DNA of 39,166 nucleotides from contig CANPWY010000005.1 in NCBI GenBank assembly GCA_947585215.1, positions 1-39,166 on the forward strand, given 5' to 3'. Of the stretch, positions 4,476 to 13,089 are shown one piece after another. Both the position numbers and the translations under genes were made by a program. Under the pieces are notes generated by a model. It was not told the origin of the DNA. It did not search any database and saw only the letters and a program-made list of their open reading frames with translations. The stretch's first letter is position 1, and the number at the start of each line of letters is the position of its first letter. The stretch comes from an uncultured Clostridia bacterium. GTDB lineage: Bacteria; Bacillota; Clostridia; Oscillospirales; JAAYOS01.

Positions 4476-4871
4476 ATGGGCGATAACAGCAAAACGTCCG
4501 TCCTCGACATGGCCGAGATGCTCGAGATACAGCGCCGTCTTCACGACGCGCACCCCGAGTGGGGCGGGCTCACCGTCGAACACGGTCTGCGTCAGCTCCT
4601 CTGGATGGTGGGTGAGATAGGCGAGGTCATCGACGTCATAAAGAAGGCCCCGGCGGAGCGGTACATGTCCCCGGGCGAGGTGCGGGAGCACTTCGTCGAG
4701 GAGTTCTGCGACGTCATGATGTACTTTGCGGACACGCTCGTCTGCTACGGCGTGACGGCGGAGGAGTTTGCCGAGGCGTACCGCAAAAAGGCGGACTACG
4801 ACCTCATCCGCGATTACCTGTCGCAGAACGAGGCTGTATATGGGGAAAAGTCCCCAAAAACAAGGAATTAA
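4476..4871 (+). CDS. MazG-like nucleotide pyrophosphohydrolase family protein
   Basis: WMVGEIGEVIDVIKK...HFVEEFCDVMMYFADTL matches the EExxE...D/E pattern of MazG/dUTPase-like all-alpha NTP pyrophosphatases. Confidence 0.7.
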   Translation: MGDNSKTSVLDMAEMLEIQRRLHDAHPEWGGLTVEHGLRQLLWMVGEIGEVIDVIKKAPAERYMSPGEVREHFVEEFCDVMMYFADTLVCYGVTAEEFAEAYRKKADYDLIRDYLSQNEAVYGEKSPKTRN

Positions 4872-4887
4872 GGGAGATAACCTGAAG

Positions 4888-6225
4888 ATGCCCAGATGTA
4901 ATACGGAACGCGCGCAGGCGATATGGCGCTCGGTGATGAACGCCCTGCGCGGCGACCTGTCAAGCCTCGTCATAGACACCTACATAGAGTACGCCAAGGG
5001 CGTGGATATCACGAGCGAATACTTCGTGCTCTGCTGTGAGAACACCGTCTCGCGGGACTGGATAGAGCGCAGTCAGCGGCAGAACATCGAGCGGCTCCTG
5101 CTCGAGGAGGTCGGCGCGCCGGTGCAGCTTCGCCTGCTCGCGGGCGAGGAGGAGGCGCGCGCCTACATCGCGGAGCGGGAGAAGCCGGACGCGGCGGGCG
5201 TCGGGAGCGAGTACACGTTCGAGAACTTCATCGTCGGCGGCTCGAACCGCTTTGCACACGCGGCGGCGCAGGCCGTCGCGGCGGGGGAGGCGACGAGCTA
5301 CAACCCGCTCTTCATCTACGGCGGCAGCGGTCTCGGCAAGACCCATCTGCTCTACGCCATAGCAAACGAGTTCCGCCGGCGCTTTCCCGCAAAGCGCGTG
5401 ACCTACGTGCGCGGGGAGGACTTCACAAACGAGCTCATCGAGGCTATTCGCGAGGGACGTCTCCGCGCCGGACGCGAGCGGGAGTTCCGCGAGAAGTACC
5501 GCTCGAGCGACCTGTTCCTCGTTGACGACATACAGTTCATCGCGGGCAAGGAGGCCACGCAGGAGGAGTTCTTCAACACCTTCAACGCCCTGCACGAAGC
5601 GGGCAAGCAGATAGTCCTCACGTCCGACCGTCCGCCGAAGGAGATGAGCCGCCTCGAGGAACGGCTCCGCACGCGCTTCGAGTGGGGCGTGATATGCGAC
5701 GTTCAGCCGCCCGACCTCGAGACGCGGGTGGTGATAGTCCGCTCGAAGGCGAGCGCCATCGGCATGGACATGCCGGACGCGGTCGCGATGTACGTCGCGG
5801 AGAACATCACCTCCAACGTCCGGCAGATAGAGGGCGTCGTGAAAAAGCTCGGCGCTTACTCCGCGCTGCTCCGCGAGCCGATAACCGTCGCGACGGCACA
5901 GCACGCTATTGGCGACGTGTTCACCGAGAAGAGCGAGCCCACGGCGGACATCATCATCGAGGAGGTCGAGCGGTTCTTCGACCTCGACCGAGGGTCGCTC
6001 GCGGGCAAGCGGCGCGACGCGCGCACCGCGCACGCCCGCCAGGTCGCGGGCTACCTCATGCGAACGATGACGAAGCTGAGCTTCCCCGAGATAGGGCGCG
6101 CGCTCGGGCGGCACTATTCGACCATCATGTACTCGGTCGATCAGGTCGTGGACTCGCGCCGCACCGACCGCCAGCTCGACACCGATTTGAAGGATCTCAC
6201 CATTAACATTACGAATCATCAGTAA
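4888..6225 (+). CDS. dnaA: DnaA-family replication initiator (divergent domain IV)
   Basis: YTFENFIVGGSNRFAHAAAQAVA, GGSGLGKTHLLYAI Walker A, LFLVDDIQFIAGKEATQEEFFNTFN Walker B, LTSDRPPKEM, domain IV helix-turn-helix; ATG at 4888 preceded by AAGGGAG. Confidence 0.93.
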   Translation: MPRCNTERAQAIWRSVMNALRGDLSSLVIDTYIEYAKGVDITSEYFVLCCENTVSRDWIERSQRQNIERLLLEEVGAPVQLRLLAGEEEARAYIAEREKPDAAGVGSEYTFENFIVGGSNRFAHAAAQAVAAGEATSYNPLFIYGGSGLGKTHLLYAIANEFRRRFPAKRVTYVRGEDFTNELIEAIREGRLRAGREREFREKYRSSDLFLVDDIQFIAGKEATQEEFFNTFNALHEAGKQIVLTSDRPPKEMSRLEERLRTRFEWGVICDVQPPDLETRVVIVRSKASAIGMDMPDAVAMYVAENITSNVRQIEGVVKKLGAYSALLREPITVATAQHAIGDVFTEKSEPTADIIIEEVERFFDLDRGSLAGKRRDARTAHARQVAGYLMRTMTKLSFPEIGRALGRHYSTIMYSVDQVVDSRRTDRQLDTDLKDLTINITNHQ

Positions 6226-6238
6226 GGCGTCAACACCG

Positions 6239-6275
6239 AAAGCCCCGCGAAACGTATGTTTCGCGGGGCTTTTTG
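6239..6275 (+). terminator. Rho-independent terminator after the dnaA-like gene
   Basis: AAAGCCCCGCGAAACGTATGTTTCGCGGGGCTTTTT: GC stem plus T tract. Confidence 0.9.
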
Positions 6276-6281
6276 CCGCGC

Positions 6282-6338
6282 AAAGTTGAGACTTATCGGG
6301 TAAAAATATGATGTATCATCATATTATCAACTTTACCC
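6282..6338 (+). promoter_or_regulatory. Nested palindromes in the promoter region of the tyrosine recombinase gene (candidate operator)
   Basis: AATATGATG-TAT-CATCATATT (6305-6325), inside GGGTAAA...TTTACCC (6298-6304/6332-6338) and AAAGTTGA...TCAACTTT (6282-6289/6327-6334). Confidence 0.6.
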
Positions 6339-6351
6339 CAAGGAAGTCTCT

Positions 6352-7230
6352 ATGAAAATGACAAATTTGGTTCTTACTCCGGAAATTCTCTCCGCCTTCG
6401 CGCGCGAGCTCGAAGCGAAGCGGCGCAGTGTCTGCACGCGCGAGAAGTACCTGCACGACGCGCGCGAGTTCGCGCGGTTTCTCGCGGGGCGTCCCGTCTC
6501 GCCGGAGCTGACGCTTGAGTATCGCGACGCGCTCATCTCCTCCGGCTACTCTCCGTCCAGCGTGAACACGATGCTCGCGTCGCTGAACGCTCTGTTCCGC
6601 TTTGTCGGGCGGGAGGACTGCCGCGCCGAGCGGACGCGCGTCCAGCGCGAGGCGTTCCGTCCCGAGGAATGCGAGCTCACCCGCGACGAATACCTCCGCC
6701 TGCTCGGCGCGGCGTCGTCCCGCGAGCGACTCATCCTCGAGGCGATATGCTCCACCGGGATACGCATCTCGGAATTGCGGTATTTCACCGTCGAGGGCGT
6801 GCGGCGCGGCGCGCTGTCGGTGACCTGCAAGGGCAAGACGCGCTCCATCCTGCTCACCCACAAGCTGAAAACTCTGCTTTTGCAGTACGCGGAGGAGCAA
6901 GGCGTCACTTCCGGCGCGATCTTCCTCGACCGTCACGGCAACCCCGTCGGGCGAGGCACGGTCTGGGCGATGATGAAGCGCCTCGCGCGAAAGTCCGGCG
7001 TCCCGGAGGCGAAAGTCTTCCCGCATAACCTGCGGAAGCTGTTCGCCCGGATGTTCTACGAGCGGAGCCATGACATCGCCAAGCTCGCTGACGTGCTCGG
7101 TCACAGCAGTGTCAACACGACGCGCATCTATATCATGACGACGGGCGCGGAACACAGGGCTATGCTCGAGGAACTAGACCTCATCCCGGACACGGAGTAC
7201 CGACCGTCGGGCAGGCGGCGAACGGCGTAG
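6352..7230 (+). CDS. Tyrosine recombinase/integrase, candidate DNA invertase
   Basis: SAM-like N-terminus and full catalytic set: TGIRISEL (Arg), CKGKTR (Lys), HNLRKLFA (HxxR), LGHSSVNTTRIYI (His...Tyr). Confidence 0.95.
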   Translation: MKMTNLVLTPEILSAFARELEAKRRSVCTREKYLHDAREFARFLAGRPVSPELTLEYRDALISSGYSPSSVNTMLASLNALFRFVGREDCRAERTRVQREAFRPEECELTRDEYLRLLGAASSRERLILEAICSTGIRISELRYFTVEGVRRGALSVTCKGKTRSILLTHKLKTLLLQYAEEQGVTSGAIFLDRHGNPVGRGTVWAMMKRLARKSGVPEAKVFPHNLRKLFARMFYERSHDIAKLADVLGHSSVNTTRIYIMTTGAEHRAMLEELDLIPDTEYRPSGRRRTA

Positions 7231-7246
7231 GCCGGACAACAAAAAA

Positions 7247-7270
7247 TCGACATTATTGGTATAATGTCGA
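7247..7270 (+). repeat. Left crossover site: TCGACATTA-TTGGTA-TAATGTCGA
   Basis: Perfect 9-bp inverted arms around a 6-nt asymmetric spacer, the expected architecture of a simple tyrosine recombinase core site. Confidence 0.85.
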
Positions 7271-7317
7271 TCAAACAGAGCCGGACGGCATGCCGCGTCC
7301 GCATAAAATCAATTATT

Positions 7318-7345
7318 ATTATAGTCACTCTGCCAAAGAAGTCAA
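7318..7345 (-). promoter_or_regulatory. Near-consensus sigma-A promoter inside the invertible segment, pointing left (OFF relative to the pilin gene)
   Basis: Minus strand TTGACT-16 nt (tctttggcagagtgac)-TATAAT; -35 at 7345-7340, -10 at 7323-7318. Confidence 0.8.
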
Positions 7346-7403
7346 GAGCTGTAAGGAAATTTCCCTGAAAACAGGCTTGATTTACATATTTTGAGTGTAG
7401 TCG

Positions 7404-7451
7404 GCACACCCTCGGCGCTCCTTTTGAAAGCAAAGGAGCGGGAGGGTGTGC
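7404..7451. other. Long interrupted hairpin in the middle of the invertible segment
   Basis: GCACACCCTcggCGCTCCTTTtgaaagcAAAGGAGCGggAGGGTGTGC: two stacked 9-bp stems; no T tract on either side. Confidence 0.8.
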
Positions 7452-7533
7452 GAAAGCGCGCCCAAATTTTCTGATTTGTGCAAAACAGAAACGATTCAGC
7501 CCGATTTTGAAGCAAACCGAAATGTGCGCAGTT

Positions 7534-7555
7534 GACATTATACCAATAATGTCGA
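7534..7555 (-). repeat. Right crossover site, inverted orientation
   Basis: 22/22 identical to the left site on the opposite strand. Confidence 0.85.
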
Positions 7556-7637
7556 AAAAACGGGGCCTCCCGACGGTAGTTCCGCATGACCTTTGTCGAT
7601 TTTGACGAAGGAAAACACTCTGTTAGGAGGTTCAACA

Positions 7638-8900
7638 ATGAAAGGACAAACTCTGAAAGAAGACAGGAAAGGCTTTACCTTGGTCGAGTTGATCGTGGTG
7701 ATCGCGATTCTCGCCATCCTCGCGGCGGTCGCGTACCCGGTGTACACGGGGTACATCACCAAGGCAAATGAGGCGGCGGATCAGGTGCTGCTCGGCGCCG
7801 TCAACGAGTCGTTCCGCTCGGCGCTGTACGATGTGGGGTATACTGACGGCGAGCTGCCCGAGATGGCTACGGCAGCACTTACCGAACAAAAAGTAAGTGA
7901 AGTATCTTCCGCCGGTATAGCTGGGTTGAACGATGCGTTCTTTAAGTATTTTGAAGGCAATGCAAACACGGCTTTTAAGGTTGTTAAGGCGCTTTTGTAC
8001 AATCAAACCCAAGGCTTCTATGCCAGTTTAGGGGAAAACGAATTTATATTTGGTGAGAACAGAAAATTGGTGAAAAAGGGGATTAATGCCGCAGGTAAAA
8101 CCATGTGGGAATGGTCAACAGAGGTAGGCGATTTCACACTTACAACGAATGAGGAAAACATTGAGAGCTTCAACAACTCCAGTTTCGGTAAAAACATGAC
8201 CATGGACGGTTTGATGGGCGAAATTGATAAACTGGTTACCGGAGTAACTGGCGTTGTCGAAAGTGTTTCCCCCGAACAGTATCTGACAAAAGATATCATG
8301 GATATGCTTAAAAAAGCCGGATATACACCCGGAACAGATGACTATAAAAAAGCTGCCGTTCGCGCGTTGGTGGTGCAATCGGCAATGCAATCTGATTGTT
8401 GGACGGTTGACGGTCTTCTTGAGGACATGAAGAATGGTCGCCTCTCAACAACTCCGGCACTTAAGGAGGGAGACGGTTCACAAGCACGTCTTGCCAGCGC
8501 AAATGCAATGTTTTATGCCATGATTACAGGTTACGCTAAGAGCGAAGCCGGGAAAAACACCACTGTAACAATTTGGAATCAAGGTGAAGGAAGAAACTTT
8601 ACCGGTACAGTAGCCGAATATTACGACCATTATATTACCAATGCGATAAACGGCGAAAACGGTTTAAAGCCAAGCCAAGCATATGGTGAAATACTTACGC
8701 TTATGCAGGGCGTCATAGATACACCAGAATATAAAGATTACTTAAACAGCGGAGAGGGCAAGAAAGATATAGAAGGATACCTCGGTGCGATGGAATTTAT
8801 CCGTGATAACGCCGATTCAATTGTTAGCAGTAAGACGCTGGACGCCGGTTACAGCGATCCTGCTCTTGCGGAACTGCTTTCCACCCTGTTCGCCGGCTGA
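7638..8900 (+). CDS. Type IV prepilin-like protein (N-methylation motif) with a large unknown C-terminal domain
   Basis: RKGFTLVELIVVIAILAILAAVAYPVYTGYITKANEAA is a class III/type IV prepilin N-terminus; AGGAGG RBS at 7625-7630 before ATG 7638. Confidence 0.92.
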   Translation: MKGQTLKEDRKGFTLVELIVVIAILAILAAVAYPVYTGYITKANEAADQVLLGAVNESFRSALYDVGYTDGELPEMATAALTEQKVSEVSSAGIAGLNDAFFKYFEGNANTAFKVVKALLYNQTQGFYASLGENEFIFGENRKLVKKGINAAGKTMWEWSTEVGDFTLTTNEENIESFNNSSFGKNMTMDGLMGEIDKLVTGVTGVVESVSPEQYLTKDIMDMLKKAGYTPGTDDYKKAAVRALVVQSAMQSDCWTVDGLLEDMKNGRLSTTPALKEGDGSQARLASANAMFYAMITGYAKSEAGKNTTVTIWNQGEGRNFTGTVAEYYDHYITNAINGENGLKPSQAYGEILTLMQGVIDTPEYKDYLNSGEGKKDIEGYLGAMEFIRDNADSIVSSKTLDAGYSDPALAELLSTLFAG

Positions 8901-8939
8901 TCCCCGCGACAGATGACGGAACATTCTCTGCGTGACAGA

Positions 8940-9093
8940 GGGACGGTTCTTTTGCAGCCCCACTGGGGACGGTTCTTGTGAACCACCTACGCTTACGCTC
9001 CGGTGTCCCACAAAAACCGTCCCCGTGAGGCAGGAGGCGGTTCAAGGGGACGGTTATTCGTGGGGCGCGAAGCGACTCACAAGAACCGTCCCC
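8940..9093. repeat. Cluster of GGGGACGGTTCTTGTG-type REP-like repeats in both orientations
   Basis: Copies at 8940-8954, 8965-8980 and 9046-9062 (+) and at 9009-9024 and 9078-9093 (-); 8965-8980 and 9078-9093 are perfect 16-bp inverted repeats. Confidence 0.85.
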
Positions 9094-9138
9094 TTGGGAC
9101 GCCGTGTCACACCGATGTTGATTTGAGGAGGCGGTTTA

Positions 9139-9480
9139 GTGGAAAGCTCTTTGCCTCGCTCGCGGCGGCTGTACTTGCTCCTCGCCATTGGTACGCAGAT
9201 ACTCAGCCTCGTCGATTTTGCTTACACGCTTTTCGGCATAGGCCGCATTCCCGGCATGCGGGAGGGCAACCCGTTCTTCGCGGTGCTGCTCGGCTCGCCT
9301 TGGATAGCGGCGGCGTATAAGCTCGTTGTCATACCTGCGGCATTGTGGGCGATGTATCACTTCCGCGCGCGGCCGCTCGCGCGGTTCGGGCTGTGGCTGT
9401 GCTTCCTCGTGTTTGCGTATCTGGGCGTGAAAGCCGCGTATATGCTCGTTGTCTATAGGCAATATCTTTTCGCAGGTTGA
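9139..9480 (+). CDS. Small integral membrane protein (DUF5658-like)
   Basis: Three to four hydrophobic segments; DFAYTLFGIGRIPGMREGNPFFAVLL pattern; family assignment by resemblance only. Confidence 0.65.
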   Translation: MESSLPRSRRLYLLLAIGTQILSLVDFAYTLFGIGRIPGMREGNPFFAVLLGSPWIAAAYKLVVIPAALWAMYHFRARPLARFGLWLCFLVFAYLGVKAAYMLVVYRQYLFAG

Positions 9481-9485
9481 AAAAC

Positions 9486-9527
9486 GGCCTGCCGCGAAGC
9501 AAAACCTCGCGGCAGGCCTCGTTTTTT
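9486..9527 (+). terminator. Intrinsic terminator between convergent genes
   Basis: GCCTGCCGCGAAG-caaaac-CTCGCGGCAGGC followed by GTTTTTT. Confidence 0.88.
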
Positions 9528-12500
9528 ACTTTATCAGCTCGTCCACGAACTTCTCCGCCGCGTCGAGCACGTCCGCGCCGCGCGGGAGCTTCAGCGCGAG
9601 CGCGGGACGCCCCGCGCCGGGCGCGCGGGAGTTCGCCGGCGACGCGCCGCCGCTCTGCCGCGAGCGTCCCGCCTCGAAGCGGAGGACGCTGCGGTACTTC
9701 GGCTCGGTGCAGACGCGGCTCACCGCCTCTATCGACACCGCGCCCGCCTCCTCCGAGCGGAGCGCTTCCTCGTCAAGGTAGAAGCGGACGGTGTCACCCT
9801 TCTGCGCGATCTCGCGGATGCCCGCCGCGCCCGCCTTCGCGCGGAGCAGAGCCACGCGGAGGAGCGCGTACACCTCGCGCGGCAGGTCGCCGTAGCGGTC
9901 GCAGAGCTCGTCGATAAGCTCGCTCGCCTCGTCCTCGGTGCGCGCGAGCGCCATGCGGCGGTAGAGGTCCATCCGCTCGCCGGAGTTTGCGATGTAGCTC
10001 TCGGGTATGCGCGCCTCAACGGCGAGGTCCGCCGTACACTCGCCCGCGCTCTTGGGCTTCTCGCCGCGCTCCTCGAGTACGGCGTCCTCGAGCAGTTTGA
10101 GATACATGTCGTAGCCCACCGAGTTGAGGTGGCCGGACTGCGCCGCGCCGAGGAGGTTGCCCGCGCCGCGTATCTCGAGGTCGCGCATGGCTATCTTGAA
10201 GCCCGCACCGAACTCCGCAAACTCGCGTATCGCCGTGAGGCGCTTTTCCGCTATGTCGGAGAGCGCCTTGCCCTTCCTGTAGCAGAGGTAGGCGTAGGCG
10301 CGGCGGCGGCTCCGTCCGACGCGCCCGCGTATCTGGTGCAGCTGCGCGAGGCCGTACCTGTCCGCGTCCTCGACGATGAGGGTGTTCACGTTCGGGATGT
10401 CTATGCCGGTCTCGATTATCGTCGTGCAGACGAGCACCTGAACCTCGCCGCGCTCGACGCGGTCCATCACGTCGCCGAGCTCCTTTTCGCTCATCTGGCC
10501 GTGCGCCGTCGCGACGACTATGCCGCTCTCTTCGCCGCCGAGGTCCTCGCGGATACGTGCGGCGGTGCGGTCTATCGTCTCGACGCGGTTGTGCAGGTAG
10601 TACACCTGCCCGCCGCGCCCTATCTCGCGGCGCATCGCCTCGGTGAGTATCGCGCGGTCCTGCTCGAGGACGTAGGTCTGCACCGGCAGACGGTCGCGCG
10701 GCGGGTCCTCGAGCACCGACATGTCGCGTATGCCGCTGAGCGCCATGTTGAGGGTACGGGGTATCGGCGTCGCGGAGAGGGTGAGGACGTCCACGCCCCG
10801 GCTTATCTCCTTGAGGCGCTCCTTGTGCATGACGCCGAAGCGCTGCTCCTCGTCCACTATGAGCAGACCGAGCTTCTTGAAGCTCACGTCCTTCTGGAGT
10901 ATTCTGTGCGTGCCTATGAGCAGGTCGACCTGACCCGCCGCCGTCGCTGCCGCGACGCGCTTCAGCTCCGCCGGGGTGCGGAAGCGGCTCATCACCTCGA
11001 TGTTCGCGGCAAAGCCCGCAAAGCGGCGGGACGCGGTGAGGTAGTGCTGCTGCGCGAGGACGGTCGTGGGCACGAGTATCGCGGCCTGCATGCCCGAGAG
11101 GATGCACTTCATCGCCGCGCGGAGAGCGACCTCGGTCTTGCCGAAGCCGACGTCTCCGCAGAGCAGGCGGTCCATCGGCACCGGACGCTCCATGTCCCGC
11201 TTTATCTCCTTCACGGCGGCGAGCTGGTCCGGCGTCTCGTCAAACTCGAAGCGCTCCTCGAACTCGCGCTGCATCGCGTCGTCCGGCTCGCAGACGACGC
11301 CCTCGGTCCGTGCGCGCGCGGCGTAGAGCTTTATCAGCTCGCCCGCGAGCTCCTTTGCCGCCGCCTTCGCGCGGGACTTCGAGCGCTTCCACTCCGCGCC
11401 GCCCATCTTCGAGAGGCGGACTTCCGTCGCCTCGCCCGCGCCGATGTACTTCGATATGACGTCGAGCCGCGTCGCGGGCAGGTAGAGCACGTCGGTGCCG
11501 AGGAAGCGGAGCTTCGCGTAGTCGCGCTTCGCGCCGTCCACCTCGAGGGTCTCTATGCCGACGAACTGCGCTATGCCGTAGTCGTCGTGGACGACGTAGT
11601 CGCCCGCCGTGAGGTCGGCGTAGCTCTTGACGCGGTTCGCCGCCGACTTCTTTGCCGGCTTCCGCTTCGAGGAGCGTCCCTCGCGGATGATCTGCCCCTC
11701 GGTCATGACTGCAAGCCCCGCCTCCGGCAGCTCGAATCCGGCGGTGAGCCGTCCGAGCGCTATGCGGGAACGTCCCGGCTGCGGGAGCTCCTTCAGCTCG
11801 TAGTCTAGTTGAGAGTTTATGCCGCGCTCGAAGAGCAGCTCCATCAGCCGCCGCGCGCGGTGCTCGTCCGCCGAGAGCAGGACGACGCCCTCGCCCGCGT
11901 CGAGATAGTGCCGCACCTCGCTTGCGGCGGTGTCGAGACTGCCGCCGTAGCTTGGGAGCTGGCGCATCGAGAAGGTCTCGAGCCGCTTCGGCGGGACGGG
12001 ATAGCCCGAGCCGATGAAGCTGTCGAGATATACAAACGGTATATCGGTGGCGCGTCTGTACAGTCCGTTTATGTCTTCGTAGAATTTCGCGTGGCGGGGA
12101 TGGAGCTTCCCGCTTTTCAGCAGGTCGGTTATGTCCTCGCCGTTCCGCCACTCGAGCGCGCTTCCGCGCTCGGAGGAGCGGCGGTGCTCGAACAGGACAA
12201 CGAGCGCGTCCGGGGGAAGGTAGTCCATCGCCGTCGCGAACTCGTCATATATCAAATCCAGCCACCGGTCGGCGGCGGGGAAGGAGCGGAGGTTCTCGAA
12301 GCGCTCGGCGTCCTCAAGGAGCGTCGTCTTCAGCGCGCCCTCCTTCTGGCGCGCGGCGAGGGCGCGGAGCTTTTTTGCGACGCCGTCCGCGCCTCCCTCC
12401 GCCGCGCTCACGACCGTCTCGGACGCGGGAAGGAGCAGACATCGCTCCGCCGCGTCCCCGCGCCGCTGGGTCTGCGGGTCGAACGGAGCGAGCGTGTCCA

Positions 12501-13089
12501 CCTCGTCCCCCCAGAACTCTATGCGTATCGGAAGCTCCTCGGAGGGGGAGTAGAAGTCCACTATCCCGCCGCGCCGCGAATACTGCCCCACGCCCTCGAC
12601 GGCGTATGACTGCGCGTAGCCGGACGACTCGAGCAAATCGACGAGCGCGTCCGGGTCGAGGGTCATTCCTTGCGTTATCTCGAGGCGGAGACGCCGGAAG
12701 GCGTCGGGCGGGAGCGTCCGCGCGGACGCGCTCTCGACGCTTGCGACGGCACACGCACCGTTCCGTATCGCTTCGAGCGCCGCTATGCGGCGGTGCGACC
12801 ACTCGCGCGAGCTCGCCTCCACCCCCGCGAAGTCGAACTCCCTCGGCGGGAGCACGACTGCCTCCCCGAGAAGCGAGGCACAGTCCGCCGCGACGTTCTT
12901 CGCGTCCTCGTCGTCCGGGCAGACAAGGAAAAGCGGCCGTCCGGTGTCCCGGGCGAGCGCCGCCGCGACGAGTGCCTTGTGTACCGTGCCGAGTCCTCCC
13001 GCCGCGACGGGGCTCTCGCCCCGCTCGAGCGCTTCCACGAGGACGCGGTATTCCGACAGTTTTCCGATTGCGTCAAGTAATTTCTGCAT
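9526..13089 (-). CDS. mfd: Transcription-repair coupling factor
   Basis: 1187 aa; MDRLLCGDVGFGKTEVALRAAMK, DEEQRFGVMHKERLKE, LSATPIPRTLNMALSGIRDMSVLEDPP, QIRGRVGRSRRRAYAYL, plus CarD-like RID. Confidence 0.97.
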   Translation of the reverse strand: MQKLLDAIGKLSEYRVLVEALERGESPVAAGGLGTVHKALVAAALARDTGRPLFLVCPDDEDAKNVAADCASLLGEAVVLPPREFDFAGVEASSREWSHRRIAALEAIRNGACAVASVESASARTLPPDAFRRLRLEITQGMTLDPDALVDLLESSGYAQSYAVEGVGQYSRRGGIVDFYSPSEELPIRIEFWGDEVDTLAPFDPQTQRRGDAAERCLLLPASETVVSAAEGGADGVAKKLRALAARQKEGALKTTLLEDAERFENLRSFPAADRWLDLIYDEFATAMDYLPPDALVVLFEHRRSSERGSALEWRNGEDITDLLKSGKLHPRHAKFYEDINGLYRRATDIPFVYLDSFIGSGYPVPPKRLETFSMRQLPSYGGSLDTAASEVRHYLDAGEGVVLLSADEHRARRLMELLFERGINSQLDYELKELPQPGRSRIALGRLTAGFELPEAGLAVMTEGQIIREGRSSKRKPAKKSAANRVKSYADLTAGDYVVHDDYGIAQFVGIETLEVDGAKRDYAKLRFLGTDVLYLPATRLDVISKYIGAGEATEVRLSKMGGAEWKRSKSRAKAAAKELAGELIKLYAARARTEGVVCEPDDAMQREFEERFEFDETPDQLAAVKEIKRDMERPVPMDRLLCGDVGFGKTEVALRAAMKCILSGMQAAILVPTTVLAQQHYLTASRRFAGFAANIEVMSRFRTPAELKRVAAATAAGQVDLLIGTHRILQKDVSFKKLGLLIVDEEQRFGVMHKERLKEISRGVDVLTLSATPIPRTLNMALSGIRDMSVLEDPPRDRLPVQTYVLEQDRAILTEAMRREIGRGGQVYYLHNRVETIDRTAARIREDLGGEESGIVVATAHGQMSEKELGDVMDRVERGEVQVLVCTTIIETGIDIPNVNTLIVEDADRYGLAQLHQIRGRVGRSRRRAYAYLCYRKGKALSDIAEKRLTAIREFAEFGAGFKIAMRDLEIRGAGNLLGAAQSGHLNSVGYDMYLKLLEDAVLEERGEKPKSAGECTADLAVEARIPESYIANSGERMDLYRRMALARTEDEASELIDELCDRYGDLPREVYALLRVALLRAKAGAAGIREIAQKGDTVRFYLDEEALRSEEAGAVSIEAVSRVCTEPKYRSVLRFEAGRSRQSGGASPANSRAPGAGRPALALKLPRGADVLDAAEKFVDELIK

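Follow-up and report, generated by a model that had tools for sequence, protein, structure and literature searches.

The window, a 39,166-nucleotide stretch of DNA from an uncultured Clostridia bacterium, carries a dnaA gene with an unusual DNA-recognition helix and no dnaN neighbour. We read its product as the ordinary, essential and sole chromosomal replication initiator of the lineage, working with standard boxes and encoded by a dnaA relocated by rearrangement, and give this reading a probability of about 0.86. Behind it stand the sole copy of the gene, the distribution of the recognition motif, the gene-order history, the purifying selection and the co-occurring standard boxes, all of which the analysis shows. 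The protein itself most likely binds standard TTWTNMACA boxes and, judging from other DnaAs, would oligomerise with ATP and open oriC as they do.

The DnaA protein

The open reading frame at positions 4888-6225 (plus strand) encodes a full-length DnaA of 445 amino acids. In a profile search it matched TIGR00362 over residues 13-439 with 449.4 bits, above the curated equivalog cut-off of 343.9. The preliminary description of the window, made from the letters alone, had called the AAA+ core canonical, and we could confirm this. Domain III (5206-5700, plus strand) matches Bac_DnaA (PF00308) with about 224-227 bits (227 for the feature as annotated), and the Walker A (GGSGLGKTH, residue 145) and Walker B (LFLVDDIQF, residue 209) motifs are intact. 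The DnaA-box-binding helix-turn-helix of domain IV (5947-6147, plus strand) matches Bac_DnaA_C (PF08299) with about 72.4-72.5 bits (72.4 as annotated; cut-off 31.5). Domain I (DnaA_N) is recognisable and weak, with 20.9 bits, under its cut-off.

Residues 406-414, located in helix 5, read LGRHYSTIM. When the protein is aligned with relatives and with domain IV of E. coli DnaA (1j1v), H409-Y410-S411 (codons 6112-6120, plus strand) fall at the positions of E. coli D433-H434-T435, exactly as had been proposed, so that the protein carries D433H, H434Y and T435S; the equivalents of R399, P423 and T436 are unchanged. The motif is thus GRHYST and not of the GRDHTT type, which is typical of DnaA and not defining. 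Below, variants are named by their residues at positions 433-434 or 433-435 (HYS for the window protein). The dN/dS of dnaA against genus-mates is 0.017-0.026, and strong purifying selection therefore acts on the protein, including its domain IV.

Relocation of dnaA

Proximity to dnaN and oriC boxes is also a typical and not a defining feature of dnaA, and it is absent from the window genome. The remark that no dnaN, recF or gyrB follows the gene holds: none of them lies near dnaA, and dnaN is on a separate contig (C158). Directly upstream, with a gap of 16 bp that leaves no room for oriC, lies the ORF described earlier as MazG-like (4476-4871, plus strand); the ORF is there, but its match to PF03819 is weak (E = 0.004, below cut-off). 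Just past dnaA, a repeat search and the sequence show an intrinsic terminator, consisting of a perfect 15-bp hairpin and a T run (6239-6272, plus strand). Further downstream is mfd (9526-13089, minus strand; Pfam DEAD/TRCF/CarD), and tblastn synteny shows that the dnaA-mfd neighbourhood is kept in G001, G006 and G007.

The family offers a stepwise example of dnaA leaving dnaN. In its genus g2 (G005 and G009) dnaN lies within about 1 kb after dnaA, which is also the arrangement of most of the order. In G007 it is 11 kb from dnaA and in opposite orientation, and in the window genome and the other genomes of its genus (G000-G004) the two genes are on different contigs. The near relative G001 has an intact dnaN-recF-gyrB-gyrA operon without dnaA (recF and the gyr genes were named by their order and by tblastn comparison with G009), and its rpmH is on a third contig, apart from both dnaA and dnaN. 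In G001 dnaA is accompanied by folT, a two-component pair and mfd, which at least in part also accompany it in G006 and G007. Rearrangement within the family took dnaA away from its ancestral place next to dnaN.

Between dnaA and mfd, at about 6227-9527, the window contains a cassette of a recombinase, a 265-bp segment, a pilin-like gene and a small ORF. The gene reported as an invertase after dnaA is indeed a tyrosine recombinase (6352-7230). The 265-bp segment is enclosed by perfect 22-bp inverted-repeat arms (7247-7268 and 7534-7555, repeat search), each of which is also palindromic and the right one of which holds TTGACA; the prepilin-like gene follows at 7638-8900. From its sequence, the whole looks like a putative invertible-promoter cassette; the copies that we saw had the same orientation throughout. 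G001 and G002 lack it and have mfd directly after dnaA; G004 has it at the same place. Two more loci of the window genome, and several of G004, hold close recombinase copies. The cassette was inserted between dnaA and mfd and, as far as can be seen, the recombinase next to dnaA is unrelated to replication.

The search for oriC

TTATCCACA, at up to one mismatch, was absent from the 14 kb to the right of dnaA and from the 4.9 kb of the window to its left, in agreement with the earlier remark that no clear DnaA-box cluster lies beside the gene. In the window genus a box cluster adjoins none of dnaA, dnaN and rpmH, and oriC was not located. The regions upstream of dnaN and rpmH in G001 were considered as origins and rejected, boxes being absent from both. 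Genome-wide scans were run in G001. A DnaA-box weight matrix recovered only weak windows besides an array on contig C1. GC skew, which had been suggested as a means to locate oriC, produced a clear terminus-like switch but no switch that would unambiguously mark an origin within a contig. The terminus-like switch lies at about 230-239 kb of contig C2 and comes with a dif-like site, ATATTATGTAT-ACGCTT-TTATGTAAACT (minus strand), which together with two more TTATGTAAACT copies occupies C2:238979-239110, close to the plus-to-minus switch of GC skew and gene strand. This region is the probable terminus. The parS sequence (TGTTNCACGTGNAACA) is absent from the G001 genome at up to one mismatch.

A conserved three-box array

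The HYS genomes contain, in non-coding DNA away from dnaA, a conserved tandem array TTATTCACA-TTATCCACA-GAC-TTATCAACA (C183:1382-1411 in the window genome, C1:67068-67097 in G001). They keep TTATTCACATTATCCACAGACTTATCAACA, and the third box of G004 is TTATTAACA. The three boxes stand head to tail in a fixed 9- and 12-bp register, and the array is present in most family genomes, not next to dnaA; the reversed control pattern had zero matches. In most family genomes the array is flanked at about -44 and +120 by GTTTACATAA, which we take to be XerD half-sites, given their likeness to known dif sites and to the dif-like site of G001, half of which (C2:238979) has the same letters. When the downstream spacing is kept strict, a match occurs in 4 of 391 genomes from the class, the window genome among them, and the reversed control matches in none. 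Related box arrays with nearby half-sites were also seen in other families of the order. The window's own assembly has two slightly different copies of the array, on C183 and C173, which represent either a duplicated locus or mixed strains.

This array, far from dnaA, could now be the oriC of the lineage: it is the only tandem trio of near-consensus boxes found in G001, and it is conserved in non-coding DNA across genus and family. We regard such a displaced origin as unlikely, however, as G001, G002 and G004 show no GC-skew switch at the array, and G005 and G009 carry the array as well as boxes between dnaA and dnaN. The array is therefore more likely a putative DnaA-binding control locus than an origin, and its coexistence with dnaA-dnaN boxes in genus g2 indicates that it predates the move of dnaA. 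Somewhat more doubtful is a broader scenario for the genus, in which dnaA, dnaN-recF-gyrBA and rpmH-rnpA-yidC are all separated and free of boxes, and initiation would have shifted to, or be governed by, the XerD-bracketed three-box element, which a DnaA with an altered helix 5 would read.

Helix 5 among clostridial DnaAs

The preliminary description took (G)GRDHTTV for the normal signature. Most DnaAs do read GRDHTT, but the statement is too strong for this order, where positions 433 and 435 vary: in 48 sequences position 433 is D in 32, H in nine, N in six and S in one, and at position 435 S is commoner than T. Among 128 clostridial DnaAs the 433-434 pair is not DH in 37 (HH 18, N at 433 10, HY 5, DY 2), hence the motif does not define the DnaA family. 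The expectation that clade-mates of an ordinary DnaA would have the same motif was borne out in part, as HYS is common to the genus-mates G001, G002 and G004, but G003, also a genus-mate (71% identical), has the canonical DHS (GRDHST). Four other family genomes have HHS (G005, G007 and G009) or HHT (G006), and HH or HY recurs outside the family, e.g. in G043, G021 and G045.

A DnaA phylogeny, proposed earlier as a check, was computed with FastTree on 126 rows with the motif columns left out. The DnaAs of the window and of G002 join that of G003 first and the family next, with local support of 99-100%. On this quick tree, in which some long branches are unsure, position 433 changed at least 16 times and position 434 at least five times; this recurrence hangs on no single node. 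GRHYST is a lineage variant of a kind that recurs among gut Clostridia. D433H is a lineage-level change of helix 5 common to most of the family, and H434Y probably arose within the genus of the window genome; both appear to be substitutions that a variable contact position tolerates, with no switch of specificity.

DnaA boxes and box specificity

Residues 432-435 of E. coli DnaA contact bases (PMC5043019), and a helix-5 change with a changed box has precedents in T. maritima (PMC10316083), whose DnaA (2z4r) reads NRSHPVV and uses ACCTACCAC, and in Epsilonproteobacteria (PMC5043019). By analogy, the HYS DnaA could have changed or relaxed its box specificity, with non-standard boxes at the oriC of the lineage. 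The lack of a standard-box cluster at dnaA, dnaN and rpmH of the genus would fit, as would the third array box, TTATCAACA or TTATTAACA, of the HYS species. We nevertheless consider this improbable, because standard boxes adjoin the genes of HH and of independent HY proteins. TTWTNCACA was counted up to 700 bp either side of each dnaA, and the expected numbers come from a first-order Markov model built on these flanks. The 91 DH loci had 205 boxes against 14.1 expected and the 18 HH loci 41 against 2.1; related species are non-independent in these counts, and the effect is about twenty-fold and spans distant HH lineages. At the four scored HY loci there were three boxes against 0.1 expected, all in G045, which has an independent HY protein (GQHYTT) and TTTTCCACA three times beside its dnaA, and which is the one genome that provides an independent HY case with boxes at dnaA. 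The other three scored HY loci are the relocated dnaA of the window genus and have zero boxes.

The array likewise argues against a changed specificity, being TTATNMACA-like alike in HYS, HHS and DHS genomes; G003, with its canonical motif, also has TTATCAACA. G001 shows no excess of the T. maritima-type box. Two candidates for a new box were rejected. TTATCGACA occurred 39 times against 14 expected under an order-3 Markov model, but the excess is gone under a maximal-order model, with 34.5 expected, and the sites do not cluster. The repeated TTATACCATA of contig C14 in G001 is an extended -10 promoter (TGGTATAAT) read in reverse, within hairpin repeats. At this place (C14:19144-19485) three tandem palindromic units of ~110 bp lie between two genes, with a promoter-like extended -10 TGGTATAAT at each end. 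Lineage boxes departing from TTWTNCACA, as in T. maritima, were not seen, and HYS, HHS and independent HY genomes all have standard boxes. Given the boxes at HH and HY dnaA loci and the conserved array in HYS genomes, D433H and H434Y do not conflict with standard boxes, and altered box specificity of the window DnaA is not supported.

A single DnaA per genome

In the window genome (2.0 Mb in 222 contigs, 91% complete) PF08299 and PF00308 have one match each, both inside the gene at 4888-6225, so that a count of dnaA homologues, another suggested check, gives only one. Exactly one DnaA, orthologous to that of the window, was recovered from nine of ten family genomes (83-98% complete), and no DnaA match from the tenth (47% complete). 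The window gene thus combines single copy, clade-wide orthology and purifying selection. Two alternatives had been offered for it. A second DnaA with different box specificity does not agree with the data: the genome yields no further DnaA, clade-mates have either the same motif or ones that grade into it, and standard boxes occur with HH and HY as with DH. The other alternative, a lineage whose one DnaA has a relocated gene, does agree, as each genome has one DnaA and dnaA and dnaN are split in the genus and adjacent in genus g2. The missing part of the genome could hold a true chromosomal DnaA, which would make the window gene, lying outside the usual operon, a second DnaA of accessory or plasmid type, but this is highly improbable, as every family genome with a match has exactly one DnaA, the window orthologue, and the gene is under strong purifying selection and sits amid the chromosomal genes mfd, proS and folT.

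Three other MAGs that are at least 97% complete (G012, G054 and G047) had no match to the DnaA domain IV or dnaN model. The origin region is probably missing from these bins, because both models match in G036, a genus-mate of G012 and G054.

Comparison with known DnaA systems

The D433-H434 pair, often treated as a fixed core of box recognition, has given way to H-H or H-Y on many occasions in gut Clostridia, with standard boxes still at dnaA. These lineages are natural mutants in which the need for individual DNA contacts can be tested.

Compared with the chromosomal DnaA of B. subtilis (PDB 8btg; TIGR00362), the window protein has the same full-length match (13-439), canonical Walker motifs, AAA+ core, domain IV and R399 and P423 equivalents. 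It differs by D433H, H434Y and T435S, by a domain I under the Pfam cut-off and by the position of its gene away from dnaN. The DnaA of T. maritima (PDB 2z4r) also departs from GRDHTT in helix 5; however, its box is ACCTACCAC, whereas TTATNMACA boxes are kept in the window lineage. Epsilonproteobacteria (PMC5043019) likewise have lineage-wide helix-5 substitutions in their sole chromosomal DnaA. Their changes are at positions 435, 438 and 439 and go with a TTCAC core, whereas those of the window lineage are at 433 and 434 and no change of box is visible, a pattern unlike both precedents.
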